A DNA stretch of 53,434 bases. Source: Empedobacter stercoris. GTDB lineage: Bacteria; Bacteroidota; Bacteroidia; Flavobacteriales; Weeksellaceae. The position numbers and the translations under genes are program-made. Positions within the stretch are counted from its first letter, which is position 1, and each line of letters begins with the position of its first letter. Under the pieces are notes generated by a model. The model was not told the DNA's origin and did no database searches. It saw only the letters and a list, made by a program, of their open reading frames with translations. Location: contig NZ_JACXZC010000023.1 in NCBI RefSeq assembly GCF_020281205.1, forward strand, positions 1 to 53,434. Direction: 5' to 3'. Of the stretch, positions 46,944-53,434 are shown one piece after another.

Positions 46944-48059
46944 TTACACGCGTACTAATTGCATTAAAGGTTCGAAAGAATAAAGGGCTGCTCTTCTACC
47001 AGCTGCTTTTTCTCTTAAAACCAAATATCCATTTTCTTCTAATTTTTTAATAATCAGAACAGCAGTAGCATTTGGGATTTTCGTTGTATTCACAAACTTA
47101 TTATTTCTAAATACAGGATAAGTAAAAATAAAATCTAAAATTTCCATATTCCATTTGGAAGACAATATATCTGAAAATTCTGTTTTTGTTGTTTCGTATA
47201 AGTTTTTGATATTTTCTGCAATTTCTAAATTACGTATTGCTTGACTTTCTACTGCTTTCAAGAAAAATTTTATCCATTGGTTCCAATCATTAGAACGTGA
47301 AACCTCTCTCATTTGCTCGATGTATTCGTCTTTATTTTCTTCGAAATATCCACTGATATAAAAATGAGGTTGAGAAAGAATTTTTTCTTGCCATAAATTA
47401 AGTGTTATTAACATACGACCAATTCGACCATTTCCATCTTTAAATGGATGTAATGCCTCAAACTCTAAATGCATGATTGCTGTTTTAATTAAAGGCGGTA
47501 AATCGCAAGATTTGATATAATCAAAAAGATTTTCTAAACCTTGATCTAAGTTTTCTGGATTAATTGGTATAAACTGAATTTCTTTTTTACGGGTATCAGC
47601 TAAATAATTTTGCTCTTTTTTAAATTCACCAGGTGATTTGTTTGCTCCTCTTCCTAAGTACAGAAGTTGTTGATGCATTTGTTTAATAAAACTTATTGAA
47701 AAGCCATAACCGCTTTCTAAAGCATTTTGCGCATTCTTTAAAGCACGTTGATATAAAATAGTCTCTATAACATCAGCTTTAGCATTAGGATTATCTTGAC
47801 CTTCATTATCAGCTTCATATAACATAATCTCGTCCATTGTACTAATAGTTCCCTCTATACGAGATGAAATTACGGCTTCTTGATTTCTTAATGGAGCTAA
47901 AAGAATTTCTGTGTTATGTAAATTTTTTAGCATTTGATCAAATCGTGCAAGAGCGTCCGTTGCTTTCACAAGTTCCTGAATAAAATCTGCGTAGTTAATA
48001 TTTTGAGGAGGAAAATTATTGTAGTGATATTTTACAGCATTATCTATATTAAAATCCAT
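46944..48059 (-). CDS. Fic-domain protein (AMPylator) with C-terminal winged helix
   Basis: A 371-residue protein with a Fic_N domain (about 20-110), Fic catalytic core and a C-terminal winged-helix-like domain (about 290-371; KWNMEILDFIFTYPVFRNNK, then PNATAVLIIKKLEENGYL). The motif is complete, HPFKDGNGRIGR starting at His204. The autoinhibitory S/T-x3-E-G/N helix is also present (SSRIEG, 65-70), which marks a class II, self-inhibited Fic. Such enzymes transfer AMP to proteins. The winged helix suggests it also binds DNA, and three similar palindromes lie just upstream of its start (48096-48228). Downstream lies a broken helicase gene. Confidence 0.9.
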   Translation of the reverse strand: MDFNIDNAVKYHYNNFPPQNINYADFIQELVKATDALARFDQMLKNLHNTEILLAPLRNQEAVISSRIEGTISTMDEIMLYEADNEGQDNPNAKADVIETILYQRALKNAQNALESGYGFSISFIKQMHQQLLYLGRGANKSPGEFKKEQNYLADTRKKEIQFIPINPENLDQGLENLFDYIKSCDLPPLIKTAIMHLEFEALHPFKDGNGRIGRMLITLNLWQEKILSQPHFYISGYFEENKDEYIEQMREVSRSNDWNQWIKFFLKAVESQAIRNLEIAENIKNLYETTKTEFSDILSSKWNMEILDFIFTYPVFRNNKFVNTTKIPNATAVLIIKKLEENGYLVLREKAAGRRAALYSFEPLMQLVRV

Positions 48060-48488: not shown

Positions 48489-48923
48489 TCAAAGAATTCC
48501 TTCGTCTGCAAAACTAAGGTAAGAATTTTTAGCCATAATAATATGGTCTAATAATCTAACATCAAATAACTCGCAACATTCTTTTATTTTAGAGGTTATG
48601 CGTTTGTCACTTTCGCTTGCTTTTAGATTACCACTTGGATGGTTGTGGGATATAATAAGTCCAGAAGCATTCGTTTTAAGCACCAAACTCATAATTAATA
48701 TAACATCAACACTACAATTAATTACCCCTCCTTTGAATAGGCTTTTTATACCCAATACTTGATTTGCTTGATTTAAAAGCAACAACTTGAATTCTTCTTG
48801 TAGCTCTATTGTATCCATATCCCAATTCGATTTTAAGACTTGGTAAACTTCACTACTTCCCAATACTTTGATTACCTCATCAACTTCATTAGTATATGAG
48901 ATTTTAATTTCTGATACCTTCAT
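48489..48923 (-). CDS. RadC-like JAB-domain protein
   Basis: A 144-residue protein with the JAB/MPN metalloprotease-like domain of RadC family members. The zinc motif is ISHNHPSGNLKASESD (His93, His95, Asp106), with a conserved Glu in the FKLLLLNQANQVLG strand region. The N-terminal helix-hairpin-helix of chromosomal RadC is missing. This short form is typical of integrative elements and genomic islands in Bacteroidota. A repair role is doubtful; its presence marks the region as mobile-element-derived. Confidence 0.88.
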   Translation of the reverse strand: MKVSEIKISYTNEVDEVIKVLGSSEVYQVLKSNWDMDTIELQEEFKLLLLNQANQVLGIKSLFKGGVINCSVDVILIMSLVLKTNASGLIISHNHPSGNLKASESDKRITSKIKECCELFDVRLLDHIIMAKNSYLSFADEGIL

Positions 48924-49990: not shown

Positions 49991-50351
49991 TAGTAATTTT
50001 GTATTTAAATTCAGATTAGTATAATTATTAAATAAAACAAAAATATATTTAATATAATTTGGTTATAGTGGGCTTGTCCGCGATAGCCCGTAGGCGACTA
50101 TAATGCCACGTTATGTAACTTAGCTAGGCTTCGAGTTGTGGGTTTTGAGTGATGAGTTTTGAGTGATTTTGCTTTTGTTGGCGATTGGAATAAGCGAAAT
50201 GTGCCCCTGAAATGAATTCAGGGTGACTGGAGCGGTGAATATATTGACTTTTCGTTAATAGTTTTTATAAATAGGATATAACAAATATGCGAGAATCTGG
50301 TGGAATCTCGCATTTATTATTTTTATCTATTTAAATAACTACATTATTAAA
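49991..50351. other. 361-bp intergenic region with a short tandem repeat and terminator
   Basis: GTTTTGAGTGAT occurs twice at 50142-50153 and 50156-50167 (period 14). The stretch 50066-50140 is more GC-rich and faintly resembles the dispersed repeat (CCGCGATAGCCCG). A hairpin ATGCGAGA/TCTCGCAT at 50287-50313 can end the PIN operon on the minus strand. No gene seen. Confidence 0.5.
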
Positions 50352-50957
50352 TTATTTAGGAATATTTAGTTGTAAGAATCTATTAAACAATGTATCGCTT
50401 TCTGTCATAACCTCTACATCCTCTACCCAAAAATCTTTATCATCTGTAACTAATATATAATTATTTGCTTTACAGATCTGGTAATAGTAATGATCATTAA
50501 AATCTAAATGAATCGGTAAATCTTTAAGAATATGTTTTAATTTAAATTTTTCTCCTAATTCATCTGATACTAAGTGTAAAGTATCATGCATGTCTCTGAT
50601 TTCATCGCATAGTAATGTATATGCAATTTTAAAATCATTTGATTTTCTAAAAACAGCTTTATAAAAATCTTTAGGAGGTGTGTAATTAGGATCTTGTTTT
50701 TGCATTTTTAATAAAAACTTTTCCATGTGTACATCTCTAAGAATACGATTAATTACTTCTGATAAAACTAATGCAGTAACAACAATTTTACATTTACTAT
50801 TATCTTGAATTTTCTCTACAAATGTGATGTAATTTTTGTCCTTGAAAGAAGGTTTAGATTTAGGAGCTAGAATTTTAATCCAAATGTTAGCATCTAAAAA
50901 ATAAAATGCACCATCTTTTGGACGTGCATTTTGCGTTTTTGAATATTTATAAGGCAT
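50352..50957 (-). CDS. PIN-domain nuclease
   Basis: A 201-residue protein with the PIN fold: FYFLDANIWIKIL near residue 18 (first Asp22), a central acidic helix VVTALVLSEVINRILRD near 60, and the C-terminal YILVTDDKDFWVEDVEV near 170 (acidic pair). PIN proteins are Mg2+/Mn2+-dependent RNases and are the toxins of VapBC systems. This one has no antitoxin-like neighbour. Instead it follows an ATPase and a STAS-like gene by 18 bases, so it is likely their effector or partner. Family is clear; target is unknown. Confidence 0.85.
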   Translation of the reverse strand: MPYKYSKTQNARPKDGAFYFLDANIWIKILAPKSKPSFKDKNYITFVEKIQDNSKCKIVVTALVLSEVINRILRDVHMEKFLLKMQKQDPNYTPPKDFYKAVFRKSNDFKIAYTLLCDEIRDMHDTLHLVSDELGEKFKLKHILKDLPIHLDFNDHYYYQICKANNYILVTDDKDFWVEDVEVMTESDTLFNRFLQLNIPK

Positions 50958-50975
50958 AATTAACCTTTTCTTTTT

Positions 50976-51296
50976 TTATAAAGAAACAATCATATTATCT
51001 ACTAATTCATCGTATTGGTCTCCTAAAAGAGCGTTTTCAATGATGTCTTCAACTTTGAATTTAAACATTGGTTTATCTTCTGGAAATACAAAGTTATTAG
51101 TATTCACATTGTTATAAATTAAAGCATATTGCCCTATTGATTCATTTAAAAAAGCTGTAGAAATACGCTTAATCCCTTCAAATGAAAGAATTAAAGAATC
51201 AGGATTAATCTCTTTAATTGCATTAAAAACATTAATACCATCTTCAATATTTGTAGCTAAATTAGAATTTATAATATCTAAAATATTGATTTTCAT
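50976..51296 (-). CDS. STAS-like protein (DUF4325)
   Basis: A 106-residue protein starting at ATG 51296 (MKINILDIINS). A longer frame to 51338 would overlap its own promoter. It shows the DUF4325 STAS-like pattern: a strand and helix region, then SLILSFEGIKRISTAFLNES, and a short acidic end. STAS-like domains mediate partner switching with GHKL ATPases in anti-sigma systems. The preceding gene encodes exactly such an ATPase. It sits between the ATPase and the PIN gene, all on one strand. Confidence 0.75.
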   Translation of the reverse strand: MKINILDIINSNLATNIEDGINVFNAIKEINPDSLILSFEGIKRISTAFLNESIGQYALIYNNVNTNNFVFPEDKPMFKFKVEDIIENALLGDQYDELVDNMIVSL

Positions 51297-51324
51297 AATT
51301 TTGCTTTTAAACGGTTTGTGTTTG

Positions 51325-51356
51325 CAAAGGTACAACACTAAATTTCAAATACCAAA
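51325..51356 (-). promoter_or_regulatory. Internal promoter of the STAS/PIN genes
   Basis: On the minus strand, TTTG (51356-51353) and TACCTTTG (51332-51325) are 20 bases apart, a full Bacteroidota promoter match overlapping the 3' end of the ATPase gene. Transcription would begin near 51318, 22 bases before ATG 51296, so the STAS and PIN genes can be expressed without the ATPase. Confidence 0.6.
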
Positions 51357-52177
51357 TTTACTATTGTACCTATGAATGGTTTATTAAAAATCTGTTTTTT
51401 CAAAGGAGAATTTTCAAGATTTTTACTCCAAAATGTATCACCTGTTATAATTTGAAAATCTCCATTACTTGAACTAAAATAATTATTTAAATCATATAAA
51501 CCAAGCCCACCTGGTGTATTTTTTTTAGTTGTATTTCTTTTTTCTAATGCCCACTTGATTGCTTGATAGTTTGACTGTACTTCATTCTTTGTTTTTTCAG
51601 CGATTGCAGGAAGAAAACCTATCCCTAAATCTACCATCGTAAAAATAAGTTTAGATTGTCTAGGGTAATATTGACCACATACAAAGAAATCGTTTTCGGT
51701 TTGAGCATGAAGTTGGATATTACAAAAAATTTCATTTAATGCATCTAGTATACAATCACTCTGTTCATCAGATAAATTCGGCATACCTCTATGTTGCATC
51801 AAATTATTTTCTATATAATGATTGAAACCCTCTTTATCTTTCTGATCAAAATTTTGGAAAGCGATTGTAGAATTTCTTTCGTCCGATTTATAATTCTCTG
51901 AATTTAAAAATCCATTACGAAAGAGTACATCAAATCTATTTTCTAAAAATGCTAAATCTGTAGTAAACTTTAGATTATTATTATCTATTAATAATTGAAT
52001 CATCGCTCCAAATATGGCGCTTAAATTCGCATCAAACCATCTTAGATGATAGAAATCGATAGATATTATACAATCAAAATAATCTTTCGCTTCATTATAA
52101 AATTTAAATAATTCATTGATACCTACAAAATTTGTAGTTAGATCACCTCCAATTTTAACAACTATCGTATTCTCCAT
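51338..52177 (-). CDS. STAS-like/GHKL ATPase protein
   Basis: A 279-residue cytosolic protein from ATG 52177; an upstream TTG at 52186 overlaps the promoter. The first 105 residues have a STAS-like pattern (IVVKIGGDLTTNF, then CIISIDFYHLRWFDANLSAI). Residues of about 140-260 are a GHKL ATPase: N box ILDALNEIFCNIQLHAQTEN, G1 MVDLGIGF, and G2 TPGGLGLYDL. It lacks the His phospho-acceptor and dimerisation region of histidine kinases, so it resembles anti-sigma-type kinases. It leads the STAS-PIN cassette. Confidence 0.75.
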   Translation of the reverse strand: MENTIVVKIGGDLTTNFVGINELFKFYNEAKDYFDCIISIDFYHLRWFDANLSAIFGAMIQLLIDNNNLKFTTDLAFLENRFDVLFRNGFLNSENYKSDERNSTIAFQNFDQKDKEGFNHYIENNLMQHRGMPNLSDEQSDCILDALNEIFCNIQLHAQTENDFFVCGQYYPRQSKLIFTMVDLGIGFLPAIAEKTKNEVQSNYQAIKWALEKRNTTKKNTPGGLGLYDLNNYFSSSNGDFQIITGDTFWSKNLENSPLKKQIFNKPFIGTIVNLVFEI

Positions 52178-52183
52178 ATTTTG

Positions 52184-52191
52184 CAAATCTA
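52184..52191 (-). promoter_or_regulatory. Putative -7 box of the ATPase gene
   Basis: TAGATTTG on the minus strand ends six bases before ATG 52177. Transcription would then start within a few bases of the start codon, giving a leaderless or nearly leaderless mRNA. No clear TTG element upstream. Confidence 0.4.
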
Positions 52192-52356
52192 TGTTTTCCC
52201 CTATTTCTGCTATAATTTTGTTTGGTAATTTATAAAAAGGTTATTAACAGGTTGTTAATTAACACAAATTAAATATGTTATCTCTGCCTATTTATGAAAA
52301 TAATTCCCAACTAAATAGAGGGGATAATAGTATATTAAAGTAAATTATAAGAATAT

Positions 52357-53376
52357 TTAAGATAAGATCCAATTAATACAGTTTTGAATTTCTTCATAAT
52401 CATCAGGCAATAAAGTTTCTAAATCACTGCTATCTAAACTAGCACAAAATGATGCCCATATTTGGTTACTCTTCCCATTTAAATGCAAATGATCTTCAAT
52501 AGTCCCTTTTTTCCATACCCAAATATTATGTTCTTTCATTTTCTCACATATATTTACAATATTATCTTTAACAGATTCATATTTTGCAAGTATAGCGAAT
52601 CCTTCTGCTGCTGTTTTAGAATTTCCCTTTTGTGGCCAACCATCTGGAGCTAATGATATATTTTCAGTATCAGCAATATTTGTTAAACAATTTAAACAAG
52701 CCTGAATATCTAAATCACCTTCAACTAGATAGCCATTCTTTATACCATATTTTAAAGCATAATCTAAGTCTACAATAGCTTTAGTAGGTAAATCCATAAC
52801 ATCTAATACTTGCATTGCTTTTTTTGTACTCCCAGAACCATCTAATTTTACTAAAGCAGCTTTATGATGTAATATAGCTTTATTGGTAATGTTTTCAATA
52901 AGAAATGGAATTAAAACATTTTCTGTTTTACCTTCAGTTAGTATTACTCTTTCCGAAAATAAAATATTACTTGAATTACTTAAAGAATATAATATAGTAA
53001 GTTGAGATTCTGCTTCTGTTTCAATTGTAGGTACGGCACTTCTTAAAGTTACTCTTTTAAAAGTTCCTTGTATATTATTTTTTCTAACAAGTACTGCATT
53101 ACCTACATCTTTATGAGTTATCATAAATGGTGAATGAGTAGTGAAAATAACTTGATAACCTTGTTCAGCAAGAATATTTAATGACTTTCTTAATATTTCT
53201 ATTGCTTGAGGATGTAAATACAATTCTGGTTCATCAATTAATAACAATGTTGTAGTAGCATTTTCTTGTTGATTTAGTTTTAAATCAGCTAAATGACGAA
53301 TTAATGTCATTTGGATAGATCTTTGAGCTCCGTGACCTAGTGAACTTACATCCTTGGCATTGTAAATCGTCAGCAA
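52357..53376 (-). pseudogene. 5'-truncated OLD-family ATPase/TOPRIM nuclease
   Basis: A 339-residue frame covering the C-terminal half of an overcoming-lysogenization-defect type protein. It begins with an ABC-like signature (SSLGHGAQRSIQM, residues 11-23), then Walker B LLLIDEPE (Asp48-Glu49) and H-loop THSPF (His81). A TOPRIM domain follows, with ILTEGKTENVLI near 145 and the VDLDYA acidic motif near 202. The N-terminal ATPase part with Walker A is absent. The frame meets a stop at 53395-53397, and the only start is TTG 53376. The DNA beyond 53376 looks unrelated, so the gene was cut by an insertion or rearrangement. Confidence 0.7.
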
Positions 53377-53434
53377 AAAGTGGACATCTAAGACCTAAAA
53401 TTTAAGGTAGTGTTTTAAAAATCATTAACTTTAA

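Follow-up and report, generated by a model that had tools for sequence, protein, structure and literature searches.

A probable vapKSC kinase-gated toxin–antitoxin module in Empedobacter stercoris and the genomic neighbourhoods of its relatives

Introduction

The closest described system to the locus examined here is vapKSC, which was named by Chambers et al. from Escherichia sp. E4736 (EMBO J, June 2026; PMC13373217). In that system the PIN protein VapC is toxic and is neutralised by the STAS protein VapS, the structure of the VapS2VapC2 complex has been solved (PDB 9Z7O), and a VapS S48E substitution abolishes both neutralisation and co-purification with VapC, in a pull-down done once (PMC13373217). 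The operon gives E. coli about 2 logs of protection against phage Bas42, and this protection is lost with VapC D28A, VapS S48A or VapK F54A (PMC13373217). It has been proposed that VapK phosphorylates VapS and that VapC is thereby released; activation by ssDNA was demonstrated for the related kinase CapK and is predicted for VapK, which was insoluble (PMC13373217). The same survey lists 289 vapKSC instances from diverse bacterial groups, of which 103 (36%) have another immune gene no more than 10 kb away (PMC13373217).

Of the systems characterised so far, CapK and CapS come closest to the kinase–STAS pair. In CapS the residue S54 is located on the second STAS helix, and 88 of 443 capKS loci sit immediately downstream of a predicted restriction–modification (R-M) system (PMC13373217). 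PIN RNases also appear in a survey of BREX loci, where they are among the less common backup effectors, and the terms 'STAS', 'HATPase' and 'GHKL' are absent from its main text (PMC12839542). Among the literature matches listed, a scope with preprints and most subscription journals outside it, only PMC13373217 treats VapKSC; PMC7159879 and PMC13092281 describe other PIN systems.

Results

The Empedobacter stercoris locus

The stretch of DNA that was analysed (the window) comprises positions 1–53,434 of Empedobacter stercoris contig NZ_JACXZC010000023.1 (GCF_020281205.1). The initial annotation had recognised three co-oriented genes for a STAS/GHKL ATPase, a STAS-like DUF4325 protein and a PIN nuclease, and these are indeed found, co-directed on the minus strand from 52186 to 50352. 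The first gene (vapK, 51338–52186, ATG start at 52177) encodes a STAS + GHKL (SpoIIAB-like) kinase of 282 aa with predicted catalytic residues E152, N156 and H160 and a tryptophan, W50, in a column occupied by W or F. It is followed by vapS (50976–51296), encoding a STAS-like (DUF4325) putative antitoxin of 106 aa counted from its ATG, with T47 (codon 51156–51158) as the predicted phospho-acceptor, and by vapC (50352–50957), encoding a PIN nuclease of 201 aa that carries the acidic residues D22, E67, D152, D155, D173 and D175. Directly 3' of vapC on the same strand lies an inverted repeat (50287–50313) with an 8-bp outer stem, a possible transcript end; a terminator scan reported no site there, although the hairpin is strong.

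The PIN gene matches Pfam PIN at 2.3e-7 and NCBIfam VapC at 0.019, the latter with 15 bits and far under the cut-off of 80, and NCBIfam has no match for the kinase or VapS. PADLOC returned nothing for VapS or VapC; for the kinase it gave DrmA at 9.1e-8 over residues 146–231, the GHKL part, with weak matches to C3a124 (0.0098) and AbiZ (0.019).

To the left of the module, on the same strand, are a Fic-domain gene (46944–48059) and a RadC-like gene (48489–48923). On the other side lies an OLD-type gene (52357–53434) that matches PADLOC Old at 1.4e-124 over profile positions 250–578 of 578 only and is without its N-terminal part. The contig closes with 74–77 nt that recur exactly at five other places in the genome, of which three are at the start of a contig, and this repeat is therefore probably the end of an insertion sequence. 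The earlier description of a decayed island beside an OLD-type gene is only loosely supported, by a single OLD-type gene that is truncated and lies where the contig ends.

Homology to Escherichia VapS and VapC

Family profiles match Escherichia VapS (9z7o_A) at 1.8e-31 and Escherichia VapC (9z7o_C) at 9.4e-33. To avoid reliance on Escherichia-like members, each profile was rebuilt from 12 Bacteroidota sequences, the window included, and these still reach 9z7o_A at 8.7e-14 and 9z7o_C at 2.1e-10, with nothing else below 0.1 in either search. Window VapS as a single sequence finds 9z7o_A at 0.0038; phmmer with window VapC alone does not find 9z7o_C, a match that only profiles detect.

The VapK fold is STAS followed by a SpoIIAB-like domain, the STAS domain beginning at about residue 4 with no N-terminal HTH. 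In the VapS model (mean pLDDT 90.5) a helix spanning residues 47–60 begins at T47, and a STAS core is joined to two predicted C-terminal helices, the last of low confidence. A Foldseek search of this model against the PDB gave no significant match (best E 2.4), with weak STAS entries in the list, and the STAS assignment of VapS accordingly rests on sequence. VapS here also has the C-terminal region by which the Escherichia protein blocks VapC, 58–70 residues following the Ser/Thr position in 61 loci. The genes run vapK–vapS–vapC, adjacent and co-directed, which is the arrangement that marks a vapKSC operon.

Conserved residues and correlated divergence

An alignment of 61 loci was made after five of 66 had been dropped as truncated or fused (L081, L114, L118, L124 and L127). 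The predicted phospho-acceptor position of VapS is Ser or Thr in every one (41 Ser, 20 Thr), and invariance is likewise complete for VapK E152, N156 and H160 and for the six acidic residues of VapC. VapK position 50 is W or F in 57 of the 61 and neither in the other four; it is a candidate equivalent of the proposed ssDNA-contact residue, F54 in Escherichia VapK (WP_135559716.1) and W68 in CapK. Pairwise distances among the three proteins are strongly correlated across the 61 loci (r = 0.94 for K–S, 0.95 for K–C and 0.90 for S–C), values that none of 999 permutations reached.

Recurrence of the trio

PHROGs 3364 was searched over 296 genomes of the phylum and the best 38 places outside the window were fetched; the exact trio occurred in 14 of them. 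Together with the window these make 15 trio loci, which are the top 15 of 39 by a kinase profile built from them. The K, S and C HMMs were likewise derived from trio loci, and the scores that they give to these same loci are inflated for that reason. A kinase-only scan with alignment A2, over 84,980 species represented by a single genome each, returned 60 loci, 56 of which hold all three genes in order; of the other four, L085, L087 and L128 are interrupted by the end of their contig, and L126 is a remnant of the kinase. These 60 are a subset and not a census, since the filter was a single degenerate kinase peptide pattern. The initial annotation had asked for co-occurrence of the three families in other genomes, and had named as grounds for abandoning the idea either a trio confined to close relatives or a PIN gene regularly paired with an unrelated antitoxin; the result was the opposite of both.

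Gene order and strand are constant in all 66 distinct trio loci, and the two gaps between the genes reach at most 127 and 203 nt; six trio loci had been removed beforehand as second copies of the same contig, and two pairs that are near-duplicates by VapK identity were kept (L107/L108, 100%; L097/L098, 96.6%). By record title the loci fall in Bacteroidota, Chlorobiota, Planctomycetota, Poribacteria, beta- and gammaproteobacteria, Desulfobacterota-type genera, Cloacimonadota, one actinobacterium and archaea; 'Bacteroidota relatives' is likewise a grouping by record title and identity, as no tree was built. The five archaeal records (L089 Methanothrix, L097 Euryarchaeota, L098 Methanosarcinaceae, L115 Thermoplasmata and L125 Methanosarcinales) are all metagenome-assembled, and some of these contigs could be misbinned. 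An RsgA GTPase gene neighbours the module in L097; the RsgA family is mainly bacterial, which makes it slightly less likely that this contig is archaeal.

Window VapK used as a tblastn query found two of 50,697 phage records and one of 72,556 plasmid records, and the L038 kinase found the same three; with only three records, the module appears to be rare on sequenced phages and plasmids at tblastn sensitivity. A search of IMG/VR with the window kinase as sole query gave no relative; alignment A2 found 14 loci there, of which one is a trio (L129), 11 are kinase + STAS only and two are kinase only.

Kinase–STAS pairs with no PIN match were seen as a separate matter in L035, L036, L037, L040, L054, L059 and L066 and in the IMG/VR loci L130–L135 and L137–L141. 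Most of their STAS partners are only about 94–138 aa long, and they are neither VapKSC nor CapKS as described; a check for a swapped effector found no common third gene in L035, L036, L037, L040, L054 and L059. In L046 (7860–8303) and L047 (147 aa) a RadC-like gene, recognised by eye, follows the pair, and these two loci are alike in gene order and have an identical 100-aa STAS protein. Kinase and STAS protein are fused in L050 (6538–7824, 428 aa) and L051 (6696–7943, 415 aa), which would fit a direct interaction between the two partners.

Restriction–modification and BREX neighbours

A same-strand R-M or BREX gene lies within 200 nt of the module in 20 of the 66 loci, neighbours having been assigned by Pfam for representatives and by phmmer or clustering for remaining members. 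Seven have Type I R-M neighbours (L038, L043, L044, L045, L069, L071, L073); one adjoins McrBC (L070), one an Eco57I-type methylase (L049) and three a methylase and a ResIII helicase (L074, L082, L084), and in L092 a ResIII gene is directly downstream. The remaining seven are BREX type-3-like or related (L103, L109, L110 by a fragment, L111, L116, L117, L118), a designation for which the names were taken from PMC12839542. L109, L111, L116 and L117 each have DUF6079 (BrxC), PglZ, an N6/N4 methylase and an SNF2 helicase; the module lies between the last two, and in L109 and L117 it is immediately next to both. Type ISP genes lie somewhat further upstream, at 540 nt in L099 and 574 nt in L113. 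The link is frequent and not constant, as other copies adjoin housekeeping or metabolic genes, including those for enolase (L121), ribonucleotide reductase (L076), DNA polymerase I (L094) and glycosyl hydrolases (L096); the window module has no R-M or BREX gene abutting it.

Probes for such neighbours were drawn from L043, L069, L082, L109, L116 and the window, and since these are themselves trio loci, six of the 23 loci (of 66) with a non-Fic match are self-hits; non-self, non-Fic matches were found in 17 of 60 loci. When 20 control regions, each of 19 kb and drawn from a set of 14 genomes, were searched with the same 12 probes, one SNF2-helicase match and one Fic match were obtained; the control regions total 380 kb as against 945 kb for the trio loci excluding the window; the control positions were hand-picked and 8 of the 14 control genomes carry the trio.

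A module shared with a second species

Among 60 near relatives the PIN profile was matched at E <= 1e-8 in three, the window's own genome included. The other two, both with the whole trio, are another species of the genus (G301, the single other carrier among 12 same-genus genomes) and one of 24 others in the family (G316). The G301 module is 95.7% identical to window positions 50304–52274 over 1,973 columns, and the rest of the 19.9 kb fetched from G301 has no match to the window. In a comparison of window positions 32.0–50.3 kb with G301 the five best matches are 70–81% identical and the other 17, of at most 440 nt, 67–88%. Within the window's genome, the 5.8-kb left flank of the G301 module has only a 39-nt match, and its 5.2-kb right flank only scattered matches on other contigs. 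Modules of this similarity in differing flanks fit a recent transfer of the bare module between genomes. No repeats of at least 30 nt were found in window positions 44.0–53.4 kb. The module in G301 lies between direct repeats spaced 11.6 kb apart (L166 136–435 and 11717–12016, with further repeats), which are possibly the borders of a larger island.

Discussion

The trio is very probably a vapKSC operon, a kinase-gated toxin–antitoxin module, as judged by its protein sequences and gene arrangement. It has in common with the Escherichia operon the order kinase–STAS–PIN, the STAS + GHKL kinase, the same acidic PIN site, and a small STAS antitoxin with an invariant Ser/Thr and a C-terminal helix; it differs in that the window proteins are distant in sequence from their Escherichia counterparts and in that the predicted acceptor is Thr. 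The window copy adds to an already known family, and looks horizontally acquired. The earlier proposal, in which a trigger sensed by the ATPase and STAS proteins leads to release or activation of the PIN nuclease, essentially coincides with the model published for vapKSC (PMC13373217), whose gene order and kinase, STAS and PIN features the trio has. The statement that it lacks a classical antitoxin needs amending, as the STAS protein VapS would, by membership in vapKSC, be the antitoxin. No sigma factor gene is present in the trio, as had been observed, and the module departs in this from SpoIIAB/SpoIIAA and RsbW/RsbV, the partner to be freed being a nuclease.

At rest VapC, a PIN RNase, would be held inactive by bound VapS. 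By analogy with CapK, ssDNA arising from phage attack or DNA damage would activate VapK, which would phosphorylate VapS on T47; phospho-VapS would let VapC go, and free VapC would cut RNA and bring growth to a stop. What was obtained here is the gene order, the conserved active-site and phospho-acceptor residues, the VapS and VapC homology and the correlated divergence, and we infer by analogy that the window copy works like its Escherichia homologue. Phosphorylation of VapS by VapK and the role of ssDNA as trigger are proposals for the Escherichia system also, and RNA is the presumed target of window VapC.

There is some reason to ask whether the same kinase–STAS–PIN switch responds to something other than free ssDNA, such as the inhibition or activity of a neighbouring R-M or BREX system or another phage product. 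R-M or BREX genes directly abut almost a third of the trio loci (20/66), and ssDNA activation was demonstrated for CapK and not for VapK (PMC13373217), which would both suit such a trigger; against it, 46 of the 66 loci, the window among them, have no abutting R-M or BREX gene, though some flanks are short (at least 1 kb is available upstream in 57 of 66 loci and downstream in 60 of 66), and the W or F found at VapK position 50 in most loci would fit the proposed DNA-stacking residue. On balance we consider a trigger of this kind unlikely, if still deserving of attention.

Much less probable is a transcriptional switch of the CapKS type, in which the kinase releases a STAS repressor that merely controls the adjacent PIN gene. 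CapK is indeed a STAS + GHKL kinase acting on a STAS partner, and the pair is the nearest characterised one (PMC13373217); however, CapK has an extra N-terminal HTH and CapS a C-terminal wHTH, and the window trio has neither. CapK and CapS control transcription. VapS at 106 aa is too short for a wHTH, the VapK STAS domain begins almost at the N-terminus, and profile A6 scores Escherichia VapS at 8.7e-14 as against only 0.14 for the CapS entry 9z72. It is scarcely credible that the two genes upstream are bystanders to a conventional VapBC-type toxin whose antitoxin is an unrelated DNA-binding protein, for although the PIN domain resembles VapC toxins, the toxin class common to both, the putative inhibitor here is a kinase-controlled STAS protein and not VapB, VapS lies directly upstream, a scan for ORFs of at least 50 aa found none within 360 nt downstream of vapC, and of the 60 loci found through the kinase, 56 have the PIN gene together with both of the others.

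Returning to the kinase-gated release of VapC, the neighbourhoods allow a broader proposal, which we put forward tentatively and would not expect to hold at even odds: that VapKSC is a built-in, damage-triggered backup arm of many R-M and BREX type-3 operons, that this arm is also present in archaea, and that it travels as a bare three-gene unit. DNA breakage by the first-line enzyme, or its failure, would generate the signal that frees the PIN RNase, and the cell would die or stop growing when restriction proved insufficient. The coupling of vapKSC to R-M and BREX genes may already be contained in Dataset EV3 of the published study (PMC13373217). Beyond the known kind of system, the present analysis adds a bare module common to a second species, the R-M or BREX adjacency in 20 of 66 loci and five archaeal metagenome-assembled copies.

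With this assignment a Bacteroidota locus can now be identified, with high probability, as a kinase-gated toxin module, and the trio extends the picture of one kinase–STAS switch that is reused with different outputs. The vapKSC operon might also account for some of the PIN backup effectors reported in BREX loci (PMC12839542), and its tight coupling to R-M and BREX genes in part of the loci offers a testable idea of how first-line DNA defence might be handed over to growth arrest.
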